This document shows, piece after piece, positions 7,874 to 30,092 of a stretch of DNA of 35,407 nucleotides. The stretch comes from Anaerolineae bacterium. GTDB lineage: Bacteria > Chloroflexota > Anaerolineae > UBA4142 > SHND01. Position 1 is the stretch's first letter. Every line of letters begins with the position of its first letter. The stretch spans positions 1 to 35,407 of the forward strand of contig JADZCJ010000012.1 of assembly GCA_020851635.1 (NCBI GenBank). Reading direction: 5' to 3'. The notes under the pieces were generated by a model, which saw only the letters and a program-made list of their open reading frames with translations, had not been told where the DNA came from and made no database searches. Both the position numbers and the translations under genes were made by a program.

Positions 7874-10800
7874 ATGGAACTCTTTCTTGTCAATCCGCGC
7901 TCTACCGACCTTCGACCCGCCCTCAGCGCCCTGCCCGATGTGAGGGTGCATTCTCTCGCGCCGCGCACAACCGCCGAGCTCATTCAGCAGCTCACCCAAA
8001 ACAGATTTGATGCTGCGCTGATCGCGGCTGACGCACATGGACTGCGCCCGCGCACGATCCTGCGTCTGTTTCACCAACATGCCCCGAACTGCCCGGTTAT
8101 TTTGCTCGACCCCGCCTTCCGGGGAACGCATGACAAATCAGAGCAAAACGGGTTTGACGCGGTCGCCTCGCCCAAGACCTACAAACGCCGATGGCGCGCC
8201 CTTTTGGAACACGCCACTCGCCACGCCAAAACGCGCGCCCAATCCACGACACTGACCTCCGAAAAACCCGCGCCCAAAAGCTCGCGCCGCCCCAACGCCT
8301 CAGCACGGTATCGCGCGTTGGTGGATACCGCGAGTGATGCAATTTTTGTGCTTGATGCGCGCGGGAACCTCCTTTACGCCAACCAAACGGCGGAGCGTCT
8401 CTTTGGCTATCCCAAGATGGCGCAGGCGGGCATGTCTGTCTTTGATTTGCTGGACCTGTCCAATTCACCCTATCAGGAGGCATTTCGCGCGTATCTGGAA
8501 ACCGGGCACACCTCCATTCACTGGCATCTGGTGCAAATGTGGGGTTGCACCGCAGACAAGCAGCGCATCCCCATCGAGCTGACTTTTAGTCATTTTACCG
8601 AGAACGGCGAACGTCGTTTTACTCTGTTTATACGCAACGTCTCGGAGCGCAGTCGCATCGAAGATGCTCTCCGCGCGTCTCAAAAGTACGCCGAAAATAT
8701 TGTCGAAAGTTCGCTCGACATGATTATCGCGGCGGACGTGAATCGCCGCATCATCGAGTTTAACCGCGCCGCAGAGCTCGCGTTCGGGTATGACCGGCAC
8801 GAGGTCTTTGGTCAGGACGTCCGCATGTTGTATGCCGCCAAAGTCGAAGGACAAGACGTGTTTGACGATATGGTGCGCTATGGCAAGACGGTGCGCCACA
8901 TTATCAACGTCCGCAAAAACGGCGAAACCTTTCACACCCTGCTTTCGGCATCCACCCTGCTTAACGTTGAGGGGCAGGTCATTGGCTATATGGGCGTCTC
9001 GCGCGACATTACGGTCGAACAGGAATTGGAAAAAAATCTGCGCGAGCGCATCGAACTGCTGGAAGCGTTGAGCGAACTGGATCAAGCGCTGGCAACGCCA
9101 CTCCCCTTGCGCGAGCTCTTGCCGATTGTGACGGAACACGCCTCGCTTCGCCTGAATGGTTCCGCCAACGCCTTGTGGCTGTACGAACCGGATGCGCTGC
9201 AGCTGCGCCTCGTCGTGATGAACAACACGTGGCAGCACAACGGGCAGGTCATGCCGCTCGGCAAGGGTCTTGCCGGACGCATCGCCGCAGCGCGCCACCT
9301 TGAATGGAACGCCGAGTCGCGCGCCGAGCCGCTTTTGCTTATTGATCCCATCCGGGAGCCATTCGATGCAATGATCGGCGCGCCGCTGCTCTATCACCGC
9401 GAATTGTTGGGCGTGCTGCTCGTCGCGCGACGCGGGCAAGCGGTTTCTCTGACCGATGGCACTGCTTTTTCGAGCGCAGAGGTCCAGGCGCTGAATCTGG
9501 TCGCGAGTCGCGCGGCAAGCGCCATCCACACCACCCATTTGTGGGAAGAAACGACCCATCGCGCCGAACAACTGGCGCTGCTCTATGATGCGGGGCTGAC
9601 GCTCAACAATGTGCTCGAACCGCGCACACAGCTGGAATTTCTCTCTAAAATTGCCATGCGTGTGCTGAACGCCGAACGCGCCGCCTTTTTCCGGCATGAT
9701 GCCGATTCAGGCACGCTCGATTTCGAGTTTGGTTTGGGCGGGGGCGCAGAATTTTCCGCGCAGATGCAGCGCACGAGTTGTCGGGCGGGTGACGAAAGCC
9801 ATTTTGCGGGGTGGGTGAGCGAACGGCGTGTGCCATTGAATCTTAGAGACCTGCGCGAGGATGCGCGGTGGCAGGACATGGACCCGCAAATTCGTTCGGG
9901 GCTGTGGGTGCCGGTCGAGCACGGCGGCGCGCTCCTCGGTGTGCTCGCCGTCTTTGCCGCGCCGCCATACAGTTTCAATCACTCGCACGAGCGCTTGCTG
10001 ACCCTGTTTGCAAATCAAGCGGCGGTGGCGCTCGAAAACGGTCGCATTTTTGGCGCGCTCAAACTGCGAATTGACGAATTGGAAGCGCTCAATCAAATGT
10101 CCAAAGCATTGAGCGCGGTCACGACACAGGAGGAAATGCTGCCGCAGTTTCTGGATGCGGCGCTGAACGCGTTGAGCGCACACGCCGGCGCGATCTTGTT
10201 GTATGACTCGACGATTGGGCGTCTCAAGTTGGCAGAGGCGCGCGGCGGCGTGGATGCGCTGCACGAAACGCTCGATCCCGCACAGGGCATGGCAAACCGC
10301 GTCCTTGAATCCGGACATGCCTATGTTTCTCCCGGCGCGCAAGGCGCGGGAAACCCCTTTCCGTCGGGCTGGAATGGCATTTTTGCGCCTCTGCGCAGCG
10401 GCGATGAAAAAATCGGCGTGCTGGTGCTCGGGGTAAAGTCACCGCGTCCCCTGGCGCGCGACCATGTGCAGCTCGTTTCGATTCTGTCCGAAATGGCGGG
10501 AAATACCCTGCACCGTCTCGGACTGCTGCGTTCGCTGGCGGACGCGTATTTCCAGGTCGAACGCGCCAAGCGCGAGTGGGAACAATCGGTTGACACGATT
10601 GATGAAGCCATCTCCATGGTGGACGCCGACGGCAAGATTCTGCGGGTGAATCACACGCTCGCCGTCTGGACGAACAGCACGCCCCAGGAATTGCTCGGAC
10701 AAGACTGCTGTAAGGTCATTGATGCGTGTGTCCAGCCCCCGGAGCATTGCCCCCACGCGCAACTGATGCGAACACGCGACCGGATCTATCGCGCCGAGTT

Positions 10801-11617
10801 CCAATCCGAACATCTCGGCAAGAGTCTCAGTTTTACGAGCTATCCGCTGTATGATGCCCAGCATCAATTTGCCGGGGCGGTCAACGTGCTCAAGGATATT
10901 TCTGTCGAAAAGGATTTGCAGGCGCAGTTGATTCAATCCGAAAAAATGGCGGCGACCGGTCGCCTGGCTGCCTTGATCGCGCACGAAATTAACAATCCCT
11001 TGCAAGGCATTCAGGGCAGTCTGGAACTGGCGCACAATTCAAGGCGGGACCTGCAAAAACAAGAACGCTATCTCACTCTGGCTAAAGGCGAATTGGATGG
11101 GCTGGTTGCCACTGTGCAGCGGATGTTGGATTTCTATCGTCCGGCAAAAGGCGTGCGCGCGCCGGTCGAGCTGCGAGGGTTGGTGGATGACGTGCTCGCG
11201 CTGACCGCCAAGCGCATTTCAAGCAGCAGCATCCGCGTCAATGTGGACCTCGAGCCGAATCTGCCGTTGGTCAACGTGGTCGGCAACCAAATCAAACAGG
11301 TGCTGCTCAATTTGCTCTTGAATGCCATCGAAGCGATGCCGGACGGCGGCACGTTGAAAATTCAAGCGCGCCGCCAGGACGACGGCATCAAAATCATGTT
11401 CAAAGATACGGGCAAGGGCATTCCGCCCGCGCAATTGGATAAAATTTTCGAACCGTTTTTTACGACCAAACCCAATGGCACGGGCTTGGGCTTGGGCGTC
11501 TGTCACAACATCGTCACACATCACGGAGGACGCCTGACGGTTACCAGCGCGTTGGGTCGCGGCAGCACCTTTACAGTATGGCTGCCCGACAGCACGCAGG
11601 CAGGAGGGAATGTGTGA
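7874..11617 (+). CDS. Soluble hybrid-like PAS/GAF sensor histidine kinase
   Basis: This 1247-residue kinase lacks membrane helices and should act in the cytoplasm. It begins with a degenerate receiver-like region (about 1-115, FDAALIAAD then CPVILLDP). Two PAS domains follow (about 142-260 and 265-390), then three GAF-like domains (about 400-555, 565-730 and 735-880). A third PAS (about 895-1015) carries clustered cysteines C945, C946, C952 and C959 (last in CPH). The transmitter has the H-box LIAHEINNPLQG with His1037. Its ATPase domain shows NLLLNAIEAMPDG, DTGKGIP and GTGLGLGV, all intact. The gene overlaps the response-regulator gene by 4 bases (GTGA), so the pair is cotranslated. The signal is unknown; the cysteines could bind metal or sense redox state, but PAS domains with CxxCP-like motifs are common and often uncharacterised. 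Confidence 0.93.
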   Translation: MELFLVNPRSTDLRPALSALPDVRVHSLAPRTTAELIQQLTQNRFDAALIAADAHGLRPRTILRLFHQHAPNCPVILLDPAFRGTHDKSEQNGFDAVASPKTYKRRWRALLEHATRHAKTRAQSTTLTSEKPAPKSSRRPNASARYRALVDTASDAIFVLDARGNLLYANQTAERLFGYPKMAQAGMSVFDLLDLSNSPYQEAFRAYLETGHTSIHWHLVQMWGCTADKQRIPIELTFSHFTENGERRFTLFIRNVSERSRIEDALRASQKYAENIVESSLDMIIAADVNRRIIEFNRAAELAFGYDRHEVFGQDVRMLYAAKVEGQDVFDDMVRYGKTVRHIINVRKNGETFHTLLSASTLLNVEGQVIGYMGVSRDITVEQELEKNLRERIELLEALSELDQALATPLPLRELLPIVTEHASLRLNGSANALWLYEPDALQLRLVVMNNTWQHNGQVMPLGKGLAGRIAAARHLEWNAESRAEPLLLIDPIREPFDAMIGAPLLYHRELLGVLLVARRGQAVSLTDGTAFSSAEVQALNLVASRAASAIHTTHLWEETTHRAEQLALLYDAGLTLNNVLEPRTQLEFLSKIAMRVLNAERAAFFRHDADSGTLDFEFGLGGGAEFSAQMQRTSCRAGDESHFAGWVSERRVPLNLRDLREDARWQDMDPQIRSGLWVPVEHGGALLGVLAVFAAPPYSFNHSHERLLTLFANQAAVALENGRIFGALKLRIDELEALNQMSKALSAVTTQEEMLPQFLDAALNALSAHAGAILLYDSTIGRLKLAEARGGVDALHETLDPAQGMANRVLESGHAYVSPGAQGAGNPFPSGWNGIFAPLRSGDEKIGVLVLGVKSPRPLARDHVQLVSILSEMAGNTLHRLGLLRSLADAYFQVERAKREWEQSVDTIDEAISMVDADGKILRVNHTLAVWTNSTPQELLGQDCCKVIDACVQPPEHCPHAQLMRTRDRIYRAEFQSEHLGKSLSFTSYPLYDAQHQFAGAVNVLKDISVEKDLQAQLIQSEKMAATGRLAALIAHEINNPLQGIQGSLELAHNSRRDLQKQERYLTLAKGELDGLVATVQRMLDFYRPAKGVRAPVELRGLVDDVLALTAKRISSSSIRVNVDLEPNLPLVNVVGNQIKQVLLNLLLNAIEAMPDGGTLKIQARRQDDGIKIMFKDTGKGIPPAQLDKIFEPFFTTKPNGTGLGLGVCHNIVTHHGGRLTVTSALGRGSTFTVWLPDSTQAGGNV

Positions 11618-12399
11618 CGCTTGCTTCTTCTATTTTGGTTGTGGATGACCATCCCAGCATACAGATTACGATCGGGGATGCGCTCAAGGAACACGGCTAT
11701 CAGGTCATGGCGGTCAGCAATGGCGCGGCGGCGCTCAGCGCATGCAAGACGCGCCATTTCGACCTCGCTTTGATTGACCTGCGAATGCCCGGTTCGATGG
11801 ACGGCATCAGTCTGCTCAAGCAGCTGCGCCAAAATTACGGGCACATGGCGCTCATCGTGCTCACCGGCTATGCAACACTCGACTCTGCTATCACGGCGCT
11901 GCGCGAACATGCAAGCGATTTCCTGATCAAGCCCGCCAGTCTCGACCAGGTGCTCGCCAGTGTCGAACGCGCCCTCTCGCATACGCGCGCCGAGAATCAG
12001 CGCCATCAGATCGTGTCCCAGCTCGAACAAATGCTGCATGAATACGGCAGAGAGAACGGCGCCACCCCCATGCCGTCGCTCTTGACCAACGATCCGAGTT
12101 TGCCGCGCCTGCGGCTGGATTCGAAAAAGCGCGTGGCATATCGCAACGCGCGCACGCTGGAACTGACGCCAACCGAATTTGACCTGTTGGAATTTCTGAT
12201 GCAGCAGCGCGACCGTGTCGTGACCGCGCACGAGTTGGTGCGGGCGGTGCACGGCTATGATTTGATCGAAAGCGAAGCGCGCCCGCTCATTCGCGTGCAT
12301 ATCCAGCGGCTGCGCAAAAAGATCGAAGACAATCCCGACAAACCGCAATACATTCAAAATGTCCGCAGCAAGGGCTATCGCTTTATCGGCGAGGACTGA
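11614..12399 (+). CDS. OmpR-family response regulator
   Basis: This 261-residue regulator has a receiver domain (about 7-120) with the acidic pair in VVDDHPS, the phosphoacceptor Asp55 in LIDLRMPG, and the Thr/Lys positions in VLTGYA and LIKPAS. A linker (about 125-165) precedes a C-terminal winged helix (about 170-260) with ELTPTEFDLLEFL, RVHIQRLRKKIE and the final VRSKGYRFIG of the OmpR/PhoB type. GTG at 11614 is the likely start: AGGAGGG stands 6-8 bases before it and it overlaps the kinase stop as GTGA. An alternative ATG at 11578 would add 12 residues read out of frame from the kinase end. It is the cognate partner of the kinase upstream. Its targets are not visible here. Confidence 0.94.
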   Translation: MTLASSILVVDDHPSIQITIGDALKEHGYQVMAVSNGAAALSACKTRHFDLALIDLRMPGSMDGISLLKQLRQNYGHMALIVLTGYATLDSAITALREHASDFLIKPASLDQVLASVERALSHTRAENQRHQIVSQLEQMLHEYGRENGATPMPSLLTNDPSLPRLRLDSKKRVAYRNARTLELTPTEFDLLEFLMQQRDRVVTAHELVRAVHGYDLIESEARPLIRVHIQRLRKKIEDNPDKPQYIQNVRSKGYRFIGED

Positions 12400-17100: not shown

Positions 17101-20100
17101 ATGATAGGGTTAAGCTCTTTTGCGCTCGTCCTGCAACGAACCTATCGTAGGGGACAAGCACAACACGATTCTCATTTCCTGCCCGCCATGACGGAATTTG
17201 GACGTTTGCATCTTGAAAGTTGGTTCCGCACCCGTGCGGTCCTGTTCGCCGTTGGGTTTTTGCTCACACTCGCTGTGACGCAAATGGCGTCCATACAGCT
17301 TTTCGTCCCCTTGCTTGTCGTCTTTGCCCTTGACGTCGTTCTTTCGGCGTTTGGCATCGCCCTCGCAAAACGCTTTACCGCGCCCCACGTCGTGCGCGTG
17401 CTGCTGCTCCTCGATCTGCTGTTGACCTTTTTGATCGTTTTTTACGCCGGCGGTTTGGATGGAGGGTTCACGGCGATTTACCTCATCGTCGTGCTTGGCG
17501 CGCTGCTCATGCTGGGTCAGCGCGCGGCGTTCCATTTTGCCGTGCTGGCTTCTCTCTGCTTTGCTACCCAGCTGCTGCTCGAGGTTGCCGGCATCCATTC
17601 CTTTCAGGGACCCTCTTCGACGCTGATCGAAATCATTGGACAGGGCGTAGTGCTGGCAGTTTTGATTACGCTGGCTCTGTTTTTGGCAAACGCCTCTGCC
17701 AATTTGAACTTGAAGCTGGCAGTAGACAAGGATGCGGCGCAGGCGGAACGCGCTCGGGCAGAACGCCTCCAGCGACAATGGGCGCTGATTCACAACGTTG
17801 CGCTGCGAGTGCAGGAATCTACGTCGCCCAGCCAAGTCTATGTCTCGATTGGCGATGAACTCGAGCGGATCGGGCTGCATTGCGCCATTCTGGAATGGGC
17901 ACAGCCCAATGTCTCTTTTCGCATCTCGCATATCTCGTCGGACAAGCAAGTGCTGGAAAGCGCGCAAGGCATGGGCATTGACCCATACTCGCTCCGGCTC
18001 GAACTCAAGAACGCGCCTCAGTTGGCGCGCGCCGTCGAAACGCGCATGCCGGAACTGGTGGTCAATGTGGAAAAAGAGGCGGCATCCCTTTTGCCCCACA
18101 CAGGGTCCGATGGAGTTATGCAAATGCTCGCGCTGTTTGAGGCAGATACCTTGATCAATGCGCCACTCGTAACCCAGGACTCGGTGCGCGCCATTTTGAT
18201 CGTCTGGGGCAAGGACCTGGGCGAACATGACAAAGCGCCCCTCGCCGCGCTGGCTCAACAAGCCGCTTCGGCGCTGGAAAAGGCGGAGCTTTTGACCGAG
18301 CAACAGAAACGCGCCGCGCAGCTCGAGTTGGTGAGCAATATTGCCGCGCGTGTCAGCGCGGCAGAGAATGCAGAGCAAATCATTCAGCCGCTGGTCCAAC
18401 AAATTGGTAACCGCTTTCATTACCAGGCGGTCAGTGTCTTGTTGATGAACGACGCCGGCGACCAACTTGCCGTCGCCGCCAGTTATTCCGTTTTGAGTGC
18501 AACACAATTGACAGACCCGCACTACCCTCTGGAAAGGGGCATCCTGGGTTGGGTCGCCAGGCATGGCGAAACATATCTGGCGCGCGATACCCGGACCGAC
18601 CCGATCTACCATTCACCTCATCCCGATAATGACCCCATCCACTCGGAACTGGTCATTCCTCTGCGCGCGCAAAACAAACTGCTCGGTGTGCTAGACCTGG
18701 AAAGCACCGAGCCGGATGCTTTTGATGTCAGCGATGTAAATGCGCTGACCCTGTTGGCAGACCAGGTTTCCGCCGCGCTCACAAAAACACGGGCGCTGGA
18801 GTTGGAGAGCAAGCGCGCCGCGCAGTTGGCGCTGGTCAGCGAAATCGCCGCGCGCGCGGGAGCATTTTCCGACCCGGACGCCATCATCAGCGCGATGGTG
18901 CAGCTTGTACAAGAGCGCTTTGGGTATCATCATGTCTGTCTCTCGCTCTACGACGCGGCACGGGATGAATTGGAACAGAGTTTTGCCGCCGGCGCGAATG
19001 CCGCGCAGTGCTCGCCCGGCGTCAGGTGGAATACCGGAGAGACGTTGATTGGACTGGCAGCGCGCACCCGTCAAACGACATACAGCGGTGATCTCAAAAA
19101 CGATGCACGCAATGGACCTGCAGACGGCGCGGGAAATTCCGCGCTGTGCGTGCCGCTTGTTAGCGACAGGACTGTCCTCGGGGTGCTGAAGGTGGAAAGC
19201 GACAGACTGTATGCGTTTGACTCGAATGATATCGGCGCGATGGAAACGCTGGCGAATCAGATGGCAGCTGCGCTGGAAAAAGCGCGCTTGCTCCAGGCGG
19301 AACGACGCCGCACCGCCCAGTTGGGATTAGTCAACCGCATTGCCTCGCGCACGGCGCGCTTGATACCCGCAACGCAGCTGATGCGCGATGCGGTTGCGTT
19401 GATTCGCACCCAATTCGGATACTATAACGTGGCGGTCTTTGTGACGATGGAGGATCAGCCCGGCGCCCGGCTGGCAGCCAATGCGGGCCCGCTGAGTATG
19501 TTTCTCCAAGAGCCGTTTGTTATGACGGCGGGCATCATTGCGTATGTGTGCGCAACCGGCAACACCTATCTGTGTTCCAATCCGCACCACGATCCACACT
19601 ATGTTTCACCTTTCGCCCGGCGCGCCGATGACCCGGTGCGGTCGGAATTGGCTATTCCCCTGCGGCGGGGTGAGAGCATCATCGGCGTGCTCGATATTCA
19701 AAGTGAACAAGCCAAGGTGTTTAGCGCGGGGGACATTAGCGCCCTGGAAGCGCTCGCCGACCAACTTGCGGCTGCGCTGGAAAACGCGCGCCTGTACGAG
19801 TCAGGGGCACAGCACGTCGCCCAACTGGAGGCAGTGCGGGTGCTCTCGCTGGAATTGACCGCCGAACGCGATGTGGATGTGCTGCTAGCTTCCATTGTCA
19901 CGAGCGCCGAGCAGTTGGTCCAGGCGGAAGGGGCTTTGCTCGAGATCGTGGATGAAACGCGCGGTGACCTGGTGGTGCGGATTTCTCATAATTTGCAGCA
20001 CAATTATGTGGGATATCGGCTCAAAATGGGTGAGGACGTTTCGGGGCGCGTTGTTGCAACGGGCGAGCCGGTCCTGATCGCGGATTATGCCAATTGGGAG

Positions 20101-23100
20101 GGACGCTCATCCAAATTCGAGCGGGAACATTTCGTGCGGCTGATGGGTGTGCCGCTCAAATGGCAAAATCGCGTGCTCGGCGTCATCAATTTACATCGAG
20201 GCGCCGATAAGCCCCTTTTCAATACCGACGAACTGCGCTTTGCCAACTTGTTTGCGGCTCAGGCGGCGATTGCGATGGAAAATGCGCGACTGCTGGACGC
20301 GCTGCAAACACAGCTTGACGCACAACAAGTCCTCAGCGAGAGTTCTGCAACTTTGCTGGGGACAGCCGAGCCGCAGGCGATTTTGGAGCAGGCCGCAGCG
20401 ACGACCTTGCGCGCGCTCCATTGTGATCGAGCTGGTGTCTTGCTGCCGGACGCTGGCGGCAAATTGATCGAGCACGCCCATGCGGGTAGTCTGTGCGAGC
20501 CGTCAGATGATTCGTCGTCGCCTGCAGCGACAGTTCTCGAAAGAGCGTATTCGACAAAACAACCTGTCACATGGAATGATTCCACCACAAATGAATCGCC
20601 CCCGGGTCCATCTGTGATAAAACGCCCCGGGTTTCGCGCGGCGCTCGCCGCGCCGATGCTGAGCGCAGATGGGGTGGTGGGCGTGATTGCGATTCATTCA
20701 CAGCGCGAGCGGCACTTTGATGCGGCGGATGTGCAAACATTATCGCTGGTGGCAAATCAAACCGCCAGCGCGCTCGAGCGCGCCCGGTATTTTCTTCAAG
20801 TACAGGGACAGGTGCGCGAACTCAATTTGTTGTTCGAGGGGTCCCGTGCCGCCAGTTCCACGCTGGACCCTGCCCAGGTTGTTGCGCATATGCTGGAGCA
20901 GTTGGTGCGCGCTTTTGATTTGACGAGCGCGTATTTTGTGCGGGTGGATCACCCGCATCATCAATTGACCCAAACTCATGCGTATTATTCCGATCAGGCA
21001 AACGCACGCGAACGTGATTCATCGGTGCGTGTGTGGAGCATGGAAGCGACGCCTGAAATTAAACAGGTGCTGGGGCACCGGGTGCGAATTTCGAATGCAG
21101 CCGACGCGCACCTCTCGGCAGAGATGCGCGCGTACATGGAGCAACACGCGGTGCATACGATCTTGCGCGTGCCGTTGGCAGCCGCAGATGAGGTGCTGGG
21201 CTATATCAGTTTGTGGGATACGCGCGCGCCGCGGACCTGGGGCAACGAACAAATCCGCTTTGTGCAAACGTTGGCATCGCAGTCCGCCGCCGCGCTGATC
21301 AACGCACAGGTGTATCAAGCCGCACAGGCGCGCACGCGCGAATTACAGGCGCTGCATCAAGCCAGTCAATTGCTCAACAGCACGCTGGATGTGCGCGCAA
21401 TTTGCGAGTACAGCATGGATTCGCTGCGCGATAGTCTGGGTTATCACCACGTCAGTCTGTACTTTGTCGAGAACGACCGCTTACGCCTCCAGGTGCAGCG
21501 CGGCTATAGTCAGCCGCTTGACGAAATCCCATTGACACGCGGGGTGATGGCACGCGCGGCAAACACGCGCGAGACTGTTTTCTTGCCGGATGTGAGTTTG
21601 GAACCCGAGTTCCTGGCAGCTCTGCCCGCCGTCCAGTCCGAAATCGCGGCGCCTCTGCTGGCGGGAGACCGCGTTCTGGGCGTGCTAAATGTCGAGACAA
21701 TTCGCGCCAAAGCAGACGCCCCGGGTAAAGAGCTACTCACCCCCGCCGACATGCAGTTACTCACCACGTTTGCGAATCAGCTGGTGGTGGCGATCGAGAA
21801 CGCGCGGTTGTTTCAAGAGACGCAACAGAGTCTGGCGCAGGTCCGCACCCTGCATATCGCCAATCAAGCTGTTAGCGCAAATCTGGAACTGGAAAGCGTG
21901 CTCGAACGGGTGGCGCAACAGTTTGTGCAGGCGCTGGATGTGGATTTTTGCACGCTGCTGGAATTAGACACAGAGCATCGCGAGCTGGTGGTGCTGTTTG
22001 ATTTGGACCCCGATACGCGGGCGCAGGTAAAGATCGGTGACCGTTTTGCGTTGGGGGACAACCAGCATTTCGAATGGGTGCTCGAGACGACCCTGCCACG
22101 CGTGTTTCACATTGACGATCCGGCGCTGGACCCCAATACTCGCGCCGAACTGCTTCAATATCTGTGCCGGACCGAGTTGACCCTGCCGCTCATCAGCAAG
22201 GGGCGCGTGATCGGTCTGATCGAGCTGGGCGACCGCAAACAAGTGCGCGAGTTTCGCCCGGATGAGATTCAGTTGGCAACCAGTCTGGCAAGCCAGGCCG
22301 CCGTGGCGCTGGCGAACGCGCGGTTGTATCACGCCGCGCGCCAACGTTTGCAGGAAACCGAAACGCTGTACCGGTTCGCGCGCGAGCTCGGGGGCGTGTT
22401 GGAGATTGAACAGCTGGGCAAGCGCGCGTTGGATGCGGCAGCCCGGTTGACGGATTTTGATGTGGGTGAGGTGAGTTTGGTGCGCGAGAGCGACGGCGCG
22501 CTGGTGCCGCTGGTCATGACGGGCGGGCCCGACCTTGATCCGGTCGAATACGTCCTCCCGCACGGGGCAGGCATTATCGGTTGGGTGGTCGCGCACGGAC
22601 GCGCCGTCCGGGTTGGCGATGTGACACGCGACCCACGCTATAGAGCTGCATCACCGCATATTATGTCGGAAATGTGTTTGCCGCTGCGCGCAGGCGAGCG
22701 CGTCATCGGAGTCCTGAATCTTGAAGCCAAAGCGCCAAACGCGTTCGATGCGCATGCCGAAGAGCTGTTGGTAGTCTTTGCTAATCAGTTGGCGATTGCG
22801 ATTGAAAACGCGCGGTTGTATGAGCAGACCAAGCGCGACGCCGAGGTCAAAGCGGCGCTGCTAAGGGAACTTTCGCATCGCGTCAAAAATAATCTTGCAG
22901 CTATCACTTCCTTGCTGTATTTGGCGTTGGACGAACCAGCCGACACGCGTGAAAAGATTTTGGGCGAGACGCTGGGACGCGTGCAAAGCATGACGCTGGC
23001 GCATGCGCTCCTGGCGCGTTCGGGGGAGGCGCGTGTCAATGTGCTGGATTTGGGGCAACAGGTGCTGAATGACGCGGCGCGCAATTTGACCCTGCCCGGT

Positions 23101-23526
23101 GCGCCGGTGCGGGTACAAGTGGCAGGCGATGTGGTTTTTATCGGCGCGCGTCAGACGACCACGCTGGCGCTCGTCTTGAACGAACTGGCGACGAATTCGC
23201 TGCGGCACGGCTTTGACAAAAGGGCACAGCACACAGCGCCGACGTTGGAGTTTAGTGTGAGTTTGCAGCGCGATCAAGTCATCTGCGCGGTATCGGACAA
23301 TGGGAATGGGCTGCCCAATGCGTTTGCGCTGGACGCGGCATCGGGCTTGGGACTCAGCTTGGTGCGCACGCTGGTAGAAAAAGACTTGCATGGGCATTTC
23401 ACATTACAGCAAATGGCGCAAGGAACACGCGCGGAAATTCGGTTTCGCCCGGAGGAGACGCTGCCGCCCGGGCACGACGGTGCCGCCGTGCTGCCGAACC
23501 TTGCGACAAGCGAGCGACCGGCATGA
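17101..23526 (+). CDS. Giant membrane sensor histidine kinase with ten GAF-like modules and HisKA_2 transmitter
   Basis: This 2141-residue kinase starts with about six membrane helices (roughly residues 45-195) and a short coiled linker. Ten consecutive GAF-like modules of about 165-170 residues follow. Each ends in a variant of LADQLAAALENARL, with these ends near residues 390, 559, 724, 892, 1058, 1224, 1398, 1564, 1737 and 1900. The transmitter has the HisKA_2-type H-box ELSHRVKNNLAAI with His1926, then an ATPase domain with LVLNELATNSLRHGF, SDNGNGLP and GLGLSLV. The modules are clearly diverged, so this is not a recent DNA duplication. ATG 17101 or ATG 17188 (MTEFGRLHLESWF) may be the start; neither has a Shine-Dalgarno, and TTGACG at 17088-17093 could be a -35 for the later start. 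No response regulator is adjacent, so its partner is elsewhere. Signals are unknown. Confidence 0.92.
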   Translation: MIGLSSFALVLQRTYRRGQAQHDSHFLPAMTEFGRLHLESWFRTRAVLFAVGFLLTLAVTQMASIQLFVPLLVVFALDVVLSAFGIALAKRFTAPHVVRVLLLLDLLLTFLIVFYAGGLDGGFTAIYLIVVLGALLMLGQRAAFHFAVLASLCFATQLLLEVAGIHSFQGPSSTLIEIIGQGVVLAVLITLALFLANASANLNLKLAVDKDAAQAERARAERLQRQWALIHNVALRVQESTSPSQVYVSIGDELERIGLHCAILEWAQPNVSFRISHISSDKQVLESAQGMGIDPYSLRLELKNAPQLARAVETRMPELVVNVEKEAASLLPHTGSDGVMQMLALFEADTLINAPLVTQDSVRAILIVWGKDLGEHDKAPLAALAQQAASALEKAELLTEQQKRAAQLELVSNIAARVSAAENAEQIIQPLVQQIGNRFHYQAVSVLLMNDAGDQLAVAASYSVLSATQLTDPHYPLERGILGWVARHGETYLARDTRTDPIYHSPHPDNDPIHSELVIPLRAQNKLLGVLDLESTEPDAFDVSDVNALTLLADQVSAALTKTRALELESKRAAQLALVSEIAARAGAFSDPDAIISAMVQLVQERFGYHHVCLSLYDAARDELEQSFAAGANAAQCSPGVRWNTGETLIGLAARTRQTTYSGDLKNDARNGPADGAGNSALCVPLVSDRTVLGVLKVESDRLYAFDSNDIGAMETLANQMAAALEKARLLQAERRRTAQLGLVNRIASRTARLIPATQLMRDAVALIRTQFGYYNVAVFVTMEDQPGARLAANAGPLSMFLQEPFVMTAGIIAYVCATGNTYLCSNPHHDPHYVSPFARRADDPVRSELAIPLRRGESIIGVLDIQSEQAKVFSAGDISALEALADQLAAALENARLYESGAQHVAQLEAVRVLSLELTAERDVDVLLASIVTSAEQLVQAEGALLEIVDETRGDLVVRISHNLQHNYVGYRLKMGEDVSGRVVATGEPVLIADYANWEGRSSKFEREHFVRLMGVPLKWQNRVLGVINLHRGADKPLFNTDELRFANLFAAQAAIAMENARLLDALQTQLDAQQVLSESSATLLGTAEPQAILEQAAATTLRALHCDRAGVLLPDAGGKLIEHAHAGSLCEPSDDSSSPAATVLERAYSTKQPVTWNDSTTNESPPGPSVIKRPGFRAALAAPMLSADGVVGVIAIHSQRERHFDAADVQTLSLVANQTASALERARYFLQVQGQVRELNLLFEGSRAASSTLDPAQVVAHMLEQLVRAFDLTSAYFVRVDHPHHQLTQTHAYYSDQANARERDSSVRVWSMEATPEIKQVLGHRVRISNAADAHLSAEMRAYMEQHAVHTILRVPLAAADEVLGYISLWDTRAPRTWGNEQIRFVQTLASQSAAALINAQVYQAAQARTRELQALHQASQLLNSTLDVRAICEYSMDSLRDSLGYHHVSLYFVENDRLRLQVQRGYSQPLDEIPLTRGVMARAANTRETVFLPDVSLEPEFLAALPAVQSEIAAPLLAGDRVLGVLNVETIRAKADAPGKELLTPADMQLLTTFANQLVVAIENARLFQETQQSLAQVRTLHIANQAVSANLELESVLERVAQQFVQALDVDFCTLLELDTEHRELVVLFDLDPDTRAQVKIGDRFALGDNQHFEWVLETTLPRVFHIDDPALDPNTRAELLQYLCRTELTLPLISKGRVIGLIELGDRKQVREFRPDEIQLATSLASQAAVALANARLYHAARQRLQETETLYRFARELGGVLEIEQLGKRALDAAARLTDFDVGEVSLVRESDGALVPLVMTGGPDLDPVEYVLPHGAGIIGWVVAHGRAVRVGDVTRDPRYRAASPHIMSEMCLPLRAGERVIGVLNLEAKAPNAFDAHAEELLVVFANQLAIAIENARLYEQTKRDAEVKAALLRELSHRVKNNLAAITSLLYLALDEPADTREKILGETLGRVQSMTLAHALLARSGEARVNVLDLGQQVLNDAARNLTLPGAPVRVQVAGDVVFIGARQTTTLALVLNELATNSLRHGFDKRAQHTAPTLEFSVSLQRDQVICAVSDNGNGLPNAFALDAASGLGLSLVRTLVEKDLHGHFTLQQMAQGTRAEIRFRPEETLPPGHDGAAVLPNLATSERPA

Positions 23527-23546
23527 GTCAGGCGCGGCTGCCTGAC
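23527..23546 (+). repeat. Small hairpin between the giant kinase and molybdoenzyme genes
   Basis: GTCAGGC (23527-23533) pairs with GCCTGAC (23540-23546) around a 6-base loop and is followed by AATTT. It begins directly at the kinase stop. The weak downstream T content makes it at best a leaky terminator or attenuator. Confidence 0.4.
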
Positions 23547-23572
23547 AATTTGAAATGGTAGGAGGAAAGACT

Positions 23573-24205
23573 GTGGCTACCTGGGACCCATTTGGCAAGG
23601 TGCAGCGCCTGCGCAAGGCGAATCCAAAGCGCCCGTTCGATTCCAAAGAGGGGCGGCTGCCGCCGGGACAATATCTGACGGAAAAATTCCCGGTCCTGCA
23701 TTACGGCAGTGTGCCGCAATTTGATGCAGAAACATGGGATTTCAAAATCTGGGGACTGGTTGAAAATCCGGTGCGCTTGACGTGGGACGAGTTTGCGCAG
23801 CTGCCGACGAGGCAGGTGGTGACAGATATTCACTGCGTAACACGCTGGAGCAAGTTTGACACGAAATGGGAGGGCGTGCCGTGGGACTGGGTGATGGAGA
23901 TTGCCAAGCCCAAGCCGGAAGCGCGCTACATCATGCTTCACAGCGAGCATGGTTTTACGGCGAACGTGCCGCTTAAAGATGCGCTCGCGGACGAAAAAAC
24001 AATGTTGGCGTACAAATTCAACGGCTTGCCCTTGGAACCGGACCACGGCTACCCGCTGCGTTTTTTGCTGCCGCATCTTTATTTTTGGAAAAGCGCAAAA
24101 TGGCTGCGCGGCATCGAATTCATGATCAACGACCGCCCCGGGTTTTGGGAAGGGTATGGGTACCATATGCATGGGGATCCTCTTTTGGAACAGAGATTTT
24201 CGTAG
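23573..24205 (+). CDS. Sulfite oxidase-like molybdopterin oxidoreductase (small, YuiH-like)
   Basis: This 210-residue protein is a stand-alone oxidoreductase molybdopterin-binding domain (PF00174 type). The probable Mo-ligating cysteine is Cys88 in DIHCVTRWSK. Other family features are WGLVENPVRLTWDEF, the phrase LMLHSEHGFT-like segment YIMLHSEHGFTANVPL, and GYPLRFLLPHLYFWKSAKW near the C-terminus. No signal peptide or membrane helix is present, so it is cytoplasmic, unlike MsrP/YedY, which is exported by Tat. GTG at 23573 is preferred because AGGAGG lies 7 bases upstream; ATG 23555 would place the ribosome-binding site inside the gene. It follows the giant kinase by 46 bases with a weak hairpin between, and precedes a good terminator. 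Its substrate and electron partner are unknown. Confidence 0.88.
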   Translation: MATWDPFGKVQRLRKANPKRPFDSKEGRLPPGQYLTEKFPVLHYGSVPQFDAETWDFKIWGLVENPVRLTWDEFAQLPTRQVVTDIHCVTRWSKFDTKWEGVPWDWVMEIAKPKPEARYIMLHSEHGFTANVPLKDALADEKTMLAYKFNGLPLEPDHGYPLRFLLPHLYFWKSAKWLRGIEFMINDRPGFWEGYGYHMHGDPLLEQRFS

Positions 24206-28939: not shown

Positions 28940-29012
28940 TTCTTCGATGACTATGTTCGCGCATTCAGAACATGTGATGCGAGCACACACCTGCCCCTGT
29001 CTAGTGATCCCC

Positions 29013-30092
29013 ATGTCCAAGTCGCCCCAATTCATCGTCCATACTTCGAATCCACTGAACGGCGAACCACCGCTGGCAACGCTGCGCGGAAATTTTATTA
29101 CGCCGCGCGAGCTGTTTTACGTCCGCAATCACAGTCCCGTCCCAGACATTGACCCGCAAACTTTTCGCCTGATCGTAAACGGCATGGTCGAGCGCGAGCT
29201 GGAACTCTCTCTCGATACCCTGCTCAACGACTTGCCAAAACGCACGGTCATGTCCACGCTCCAATGCGCGGGCAACCGCCGCAACCAGTTGATCGCGTAT
29301 GCGCCGATTCCCGGTGAAGTTGCCTGGGGGGCGGGTGCGATTGGCAATGCCTTTTGGAGCGGGGTGCCGCTCAAGGAAATTCTGAATGTGGCGGGAGTCA
29401 AGGTCGGCGCGCAATATGTCGCATTCATGGGCGCAGACGAGGTAATTCGCCACGACGAAAACGTGGGTTTTGGCGGCTCGATTCCGCTCGACAAGGCGTC
29501 GAGTCCCGAAGTTTTGTTGGCGTACGAGATGGATGGCAAACCACTCGAACCCGTGCACGGATTTCCTCTGCGCGTGATTGCGCCGGGATATATCGGCGCG
29601 CGCAGCGTAAAATGGCTGGCGCAAATCACGGTGCAGGCGTTTCCTTCCAAAAATTATTTTCAGGCACATGCCTACCAACTCTTTTCGCCGCAGACTACCG
29701 CCGAAACCGCCGATTGGAACGCGGGCTTGCAGTTGGGTGAACTGGTGGTGAATTGCGTCATCACGTCACCGCGCGCGGGCACGCAGGTCTCAAGAGATGT
29801 GCAGGTCGAGGGCTATGCAATCAGTGGTGGCGGGCGAAAAATCGCGCGGGTGGATGTTTCGAGCGACGGCGGCGAGACATGGACGACCGCCAACATCACT
29901 CAGGGGGACCAACAGTGGGCGTGGACGTTCTGGCAGATCCGTTTACAGTTAAAAGCGGGAGAGACCGAAATTGTCACTCGAGCGTTCGACTCTGCGTCCA
30001 ACACCCAGCCCGAGGACGTGCGCCACATCTGGAATTTCAAAGGATACATGAACAATGCGTGGCATCGCGTCAATGTGAACGTCAAACAATGA
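29013..30092 (+). CDS. Sulfite oxidase-family molybdenum enzyme (with Mo-co dimerisation domain)
   Basis: This 359-residue enzyme has an N-terminal molybdopterin-binding domain and a C-terminal Mo-co oxidoreductase dimerisation domain, the sulfite oxidase/nitrate reductase layout. The Mo ligand is Cys85 in STLQCAGNRR. Other hallmarks are YVRNHSPVPDIDP, AYEMDGKPLEPVHGFPLR, GARSVKWLAQI and, in the second domain, DVSSDGGETW. There is no haem domain and no signal peptide, so it is probably cytoplasmic and uses another electron acceptor. ATG 29013 (MSKSPQFIVHTSNPLN) is chosen; the frame extends up to 28947 but the extra 22 residues are Cys/His-rich and not family-like. It lies 73 bases after the SWIM gene and converges directly with the toxin gene, 2 bases apart, without a visible terminator. 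Confidence 0.9.
   Translation: MSKSPQFIVHTSNPLNGEPPLATLRGNFITPRELFYVRNHSPVPDIDPQTFRLIVNGMVERELELSLDTLLNDLPKRTVMSTLQCAGNRRNQLIAYAPIPGEVAWGAGAIGNAFWSGVPLKEILNVAGVKVGAQYVAFMGADEVIRHDENVGFGGSIPLDKASSPEVLLAYEMDGKPLEPVHGFPLRVIAPGYIGARSVKWLAQITVQAFPSKNYFQAHAYQLFSPQTTAETADWNAGLQLGELVVNCVITSPRAGTQVSRDVQVEGYAISGGGRKIARVDVSSDGGETWTTANITQGDQQWAWTFWQIRLQLKAGETEIVTRAFDSASNTQPEDVRHIWNFKGYMNNAWHRVNVNVKQ

Follow-up and report, generated by a model that had tools for sequence, protein, structure and literature searches.

A general question, still open, is how sensor modules arranged in series relay or combine signals across large distances. It is posed by a gene in the 35,407-nucleotide stretch of DNA analysed here (hereafter the window; positions 1 to 35,407 of contig JADZCJ010000012.1, assembly GCA_020851635.1, from an Anaerolineae bacterium of the Chloroflexota), which encodes a histidine kinase with ten consecutive GAF modules. 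A preliminary description of the locus offered two readings of so long an array, a multi-ligand integrator or a long signalling rod. We compared the window's genome (G000) with four congeners (G001, G002, G004 and G005) and with two genomes of a sister family (G010 and G011).

Domain architecture and conservation of the kinase

The open frame is unbroken over 2141 codons, as first described, and only its start requires correction. Orthologues in the congeners begin at the position that matches Met30 of the window frame, so the true start is probably 17188 and the protein about 2112 residues long (Table 1). From N- to C-terminus it consists of a membrane region, ten GAF modules (together 17752-22821), a HisKA_2 domain and a HATPase kinase domain. 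This is the order given in the preliminary description, and it is borne out by Pfam, by scans of the individual modules and by AlphaFold2 models; the roughly six membrane helices ahead of the modules are found both in the sequence and in the predicted structure. The kinase is an exceptionally long form of a known sensor type and not a new type of system.

Modules were delimited at a recurring LADQLAAALENARL-like motif, and each was scanned alone against Pfam. They are 164-181 residues long and, as had been remarked, well diverged, with mutual identities of 14-36%. A Pfam search with the whole protein returns ten GAF_2 stretches, HisKA_2 and HATPase_c. Scanned singly, M2-M10 exceed the Pfam GAF cut-offs (GAF_2 E values from 5e-22 to 5e-11); M1 alone falls below (GAF_2 E = 6e-4), and its predicted fold is GAF-like. 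AlphaFold2 was run on two halves of the protein with six-row alignments (mean pLDDT 75.5 and 71.2), and the alpha/beta strand-helix pattern of GAF domains appears in 10 of 10 modules, M1 included. Only local folds are read from these models, because they are monomers with low pTM (0.32-0.35). Thus, the module-by-module check that had been proposed yields nine GAFs by Pfam and ten by predicted fold, against a floor of about seven set in the preliminary description.

The C-terminal end likewise carries the HisKA_2-type H-box and ATPase domain reported there. HisKA_2 is matched by PF07568 (E = 1.8e-11, residues 1923-1991) and HATPase_c by PF02518 (E = 2.3e-9; boxes NELATNSLRHG, DNGNGLP and GLGLSLVRTLV). 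The H-box ELSHRVKNN, of the HxxKNN type, is identical in five orthologues, and the H, N, G1 and G2 boxes are intact in all five. The marks of HWE kinases, an N-box His and a G1-region WxE, are absent from this kinase (N-box LNELATNS, G1 DNGNGLP), on which the HWE_HK profile scores lower than HisKA_2.

Domain content and order and the catalytic residues are conserved in full-length ten-GAF orthologues from four of the five other genomes of the genus (59, 58, 54 and 47% identity); the fifth genome is 79% complete. Between two species, the modules have dN/dS values of 0.08-0.27 and the kinase one of 0.15; these values are rough, dS being near saturation (1.2-2.6), and indicate purifying selection throughout. 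Conservation is lowest in the membrane region (26-34% identity to congeners), which evolves fast (dN/dS about 0.5) and is on these grounds more likely an anchor than a specific receptor.

Table 1. Features of the ten-GAF kinase locus, in window positions
Feature	Position	Strand	Remarks
Ten-GAF HisKA_2 histidine kinase gene	17101..23526	+	likeliest start 17188 (Met30)
Membrane region, about six helices	17230..17712	+	residues ~44-204; weak PilS-like match
GAF module M1	17752..18294	+	degenerate; orthologous to first GAF of three-GAF relatives
GAF module M2	18295..18798	+	Pfam, AlphaFold2, module tree
GAF module M3	18799..19293	+	in one paralogue clade with M2, M4 and GAFs of three-GAF relatives
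GAF module M4	19294..19797	+	Pfam, AlphaFold2, module tree
GAF module M5	19798..20295	+	closest to GAFs in another multi-GAF kinase cluster of this genome, contig C63
GAF module M6	20296..20793	+	least conserved core
GAF module M7	20794..21315	+	sister of M9
GAF module M8	21316..21813	+	Pfam, AlphaFold2, module tree
GAF module M9	21814..22329	+	Pfam, AlphaFold2, module tree
GAF module M10	22330..22821	+	adjoins kinase; best conserved core
HisKA_2 phosphoacceptor domain	22867..23073	+	His1926 of ELSHRVKNN at 22876-22878
HATPase_c domain	23158..23451	+	N, G1, G2 boxes intact
REC-HisKA-HATPase gene site in congeners	23527..23572	+	gene missing in window
Molybdopterin-dependent sulfite-oxidase-family protein	23573..24205	+	conserved downstream neighbour, ~86% identity

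The downstream REC-kinase gene of the congeners

In four congeners, a gene of roughly 410-440 codons for a REC-HisKA-HATPase protein (417-441 residues) lies directly 3′ of the kinase gene and overlaps it in two (in G004 it was read from DNA and genome search). Only 46 bases separate the kinase stop (23526) from the next start (23573) in the window. A search of the whole G000 genome returned no orthologue of the gene; relocation is ruled out, the best match being an ANTAR regulator at 38%, and nothing significant was found when the C-terminal tail of the kinase (after residue 2119) was searched for a relic. Judging from these searches, the window's genome has lost the gene. Hence the earlier statement that no response regulator is adjacent holds for the window, where none adjoins the kinase, but not for its relatives.

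The best PDB match of the partner's receiver is Rv1626/PdtaR (1s8n, E = 1e-22), and its nearest receivers within the order belong to ANTAR regulators that adjoin HisKA_2 kinases. Since HisKA_2 kinases with PdtaR-type receivers are locally the rule, the REC-HisKA-HATPase protein is the likely cognate target of the ten-GAF kinase. The window's kinase must use an unlinked regulator, because the adjacent gene is gone. Congeners with and without the linked gene allow one to ask what such a kinase does after its linked partner is lost.

PdtaS is a HisKA_2-type kinase. In mycobacteria, PdtaS/PdtaR pairs a GAF-PAS kinase with an ANTAR regulator (PMC8131098). The kinase type and cytoplasmic GAF input are shared with the ten-GAF kinase, and the congeners' partner has a PdtaR-like receiver. 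In contrast to PdtaS, the ten-GAF kinase is membrane-bound, carries ten GAFs and lacks GAF_PdtaS, and the partner lacks an ANTAR output, no ANTAR domain being matched in the congeners' protein. Membership in the PdtaS family was ruled out by the missing PF12282 match, the membrane region and the lack of an adjacent ANTAR regulator. A canonical PdtaS-like kinase (GAF_PdtaS, HisKA_2), which does match PF12282, is encoded with an ANTAR regulator on contig C99 of the same genome (L111:2606-4884), and this pair is a possible cross-talk partner of the orphaned kinase.

For the REC-then-kinase order of the congeners' gene there is an established, structurally solved precedent in LvrB, whose phosphorylated REC switches on its own kinase (PMC13269768), although the window's genome lacks such a gene beside its ten-GAF kinase. 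By analogy, the congeners' protein would act as a second-tier kinase.

The sulfite-oxidase-family gene lies downstream of the kinase locus in G001, G004 and G005 as well (the stretch read for G002 did not show it), and a second molybdopterin gene of this family lies nearby in the window (28947-30092). Between the REC-kinase and sulfite-oxidase genes of G001 (L066:14640-14970) lie many copies of the short tandem repeat TTGGAAR and of its complement. Elsewhere in the window (7874-12399), 4.7 kb upstream of the ten-GAF gene, a PAS/GAF kinase with three GAFs and HisKA overlaps the gene of an OmpR-type response regulator by 40 bases; this is a complete two-component pair of its own.

Interdomain helices, module cores and the proposed relay

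The first 37 columns of the module alignment, comprising the linker and alpha-1, are gap-free across all ten modules, and the interdomain helix does not vary in length among them. In the AlphaFold2 models, single continuous helices of about 41-46 residues join the modules, the last running from M10 into the phosphoacceptor helix. Among the orthologues, indels fall at 2 sites in 620 helix positions and at 14 in 1069 core positions. Six modules (M1, M3, M4, M6, M8 and M9) have helices that are significantly better conserved than their cores (uncorrected Fisher tests), and M10 is the only module whose core is as conserved as its helices.

A comparison of the orthologues ranks the module cores, with M10 best kept and M6 and M1 worst. 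The fraction of core positions invariant in five orthologues is 0.49 in M10, 0.33 in M4, 0.31 in M5, 0.30 in M8, 0.29 in M7, 0.23 in M3 and M9, 0.19 in M2, 0.17 in M1 and 0.11 in M6. This is a ranking and no proof of empty pockets, because an eight-GAF paralogue shows the same tendency, and GAF arrays in general may conserve their helices more strongly than their cores. A moderately conserved core is as compatible with ligand binding of shifting specificity as with relaxed constraint.

We favour, with a probability of about one half, a relay tethered to the membrane, with M10 as its main gate and a few further live modules, that would feed a receiver-controlled second kinase, over an integrator of ten ligands. 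In this relay, the variable membrane region would anchor a HisKA_2 kinase whose ten cytoplasmic GAFs sit on unbroken interdomain helices leading to the phosphoacceptor helices. The kinase would work as a dimer and its helices would form a coiled-coil spine, a geometry that goes beyond the monomeric, low-pTM models. M10, directly on the kinase, would be the main ligand-responsive gate; M4, M5, M7, M8 and perhaps M3, with moderately kept cores, may add inputs, and M1 and M6 would be mainly structural. Ancestrally, the kinase probably signalled to the PdtaR-like receiver of the neighbouring REC-HisKA-HATPase protein, which would make a two-kinase relay. Conservation and gene order are the basis of all three parts, spine, M10 gate and REC-kinase relay.

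The strongest competitor is the integrator, in which most modules would recognise small molecules of different kinds and jointly set kinase activity as their states add up along the helices. The modules are indeed distinct, their identities are kept across the genus under purifying selection, and M4, M5, M7, M8 and M10 keep 29-49% of their core positions invariant. There is also a precedent in PtxD, a seven-GAF cyanobacteriochrome in which at least six GAFs bind bilin (PMC5812497, PMC6696110). PtxD shares the long serial array with the ten-GAF kinase, but its GAFs hold bilins via cysteines, and no module of the five orthologues carries a bilin signature (Cys-His as CH or CY, or DXCF). The nearest solved folds include the tandem GAFs of PDE5, PDE2, PDE6, CyaB2 and phytochromes, yet the cNMP-binding motif of the PDE/CyaB type, NKX(5-14)FX3DE (NKFDE), has no match in the five orthologues. 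Membership among cyanobacteriochromes was ruled out by the lack of a conserved chromophore Cys in the GAFs, and membership among cNMP-type GAFs by the lack of the NKFDE motif. No metal-binding pattern stood out across the orthologues, in which invariant Cys and His are few, and the cores of M1, M2, M6 and M9 are poorly conserved. We consider the integrator doubtful, and of the two original readings the rod is the better supported, by continuous helices of constant length and by the excess of helix over core conservation in six modules.

History of the array and long arrays in the lineage

Two proteins of the sister family, of 922 and 925 residues (P0002 and P0003, in G010 contig C138 and G011 contig C85), share the membrane region of the ten-GAF protein, begin their arrays with an M1-type GAF and have kinases 51-52% identical to its own. 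They differ in having three GAFs rather than ten, in lacking a REC-kinase gene directly downstream and in the G1-box aspartate, which is missing in both, whereas the window kinase has DNGNGLP. The sister-family kinases are possibly weak or inactive, to judge from these residues. Their G1 boxes read FSRGARLP and FNHGDTLP (L062:7265-10042, L063:605-3373), and the phosphoacceptor His is kept. The G010 kinase has gyrB (named from its own sequence, without a domain search) directly upstream, and in four congeners the orthologue likewise adjoins gyrB; gyrB is not the upstream neighbour in the window, so the locus has been rearranged there.

A tree built from 105 GAF modules places M1-M8 and M10 each in a strongly supported clade of five orthologues, and M9 likewise groups by orthology, but with one long-branch stray row. 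Given this module-by-module orthology, the array was fixed before the genus split and has not been homogenised. M1 clusters with the first GAFs of G010 and G011 (support 100/99), M10 with the third GAF of G010 (100/99) and M2 with its second (95/73). M2, M3 and M4 form one clade with the second and third GAFs of G011 (99/83), M7 and M9 are sisters (98/97), and the closest neighbours of M5 are GAFs of the C63 kinase cluster (100/92). The number of modules thus differs between the families but is constant within the genus. The array may have grown from three modules or shrunk from a longer form, because the G010 array is M1-M2-M10-like and that of G011 has M1 and two M2/M3/M4-type modules; for M2-M4, growth is the simpler, though unproven, reading.

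The length of the array could be largely a by-product of duplication and recruitment, with the extra modules as tolerated spacers that keep fold and helix register. The three-GAF proteins, the paralogy of M2-M4 and of M7 and M9, the resemblance of M5 to GAFs of another kinase cluster and the nearly unconserved core of M6 would all suit this account. However, free spacers are expected to vary in number within a genus, and all ten modules are kept in order in five of five orthologues at 47-59% identity, with dN/dS far below 1; tolerated spacers therefore seem unlikely.

The two families provide matched natural pairs, with the same anchor, first GAF and kinase and with three or ten GAFs, so that one can ask directly what the extra modules add. 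The most ambitious answer, a rather improbable one, is an analogue computer with ten inputs, in which several chemically distinct ligands would act via separate GAFs and be summed along the spine onto the PdtaR-like receiver and then the second kinase, with arrays that differ between three and ten units in close lineages. An assembly artefact or false frame has a negligible probability: the modules are too diverged and no near-identical DNA repeats were found within the gene, five independent assemblies carry the array with module-wise orthology, the sequence is under purifying selection, and the collapse or duplication considered in the preliminary description is excluded because ten-GAF orthologues exist in four other assemblies.

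In a text search of open papers, the maximum named was seven GAFs (PtxD, cyanobacteriochromes), with none of eight or more, so the number of GAFs is unusual, as had been claimed. Measured against its own genome, which has 69 GAF_2 matches, several five- and six-GAF proteins and an eight-GAF kinase, it is less exceptional. The eight-GAF kinase (contig C63, 33057-38576; L105:3057-8576; 1839 residues) has counterparts at 65-76% identity in each of the other five genomes of the genus (for G004, judged from the C-terminal half). It resembles the ten-GAF kinase in its long array and module length, and differs in having another array and another kinase and in evolving more slowly. Its presence in the same genome suggests that long arrays are a style of the lineage; in a sample of the class, no more than six GAFs were found in any of the longest frames examined from outside the genus. 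Between 82 and 97 kb of the same contig (L106) lie four consecutive genes for large multi-GAF proteins, with 3, 6, 4 and 1 GAFs by profile.
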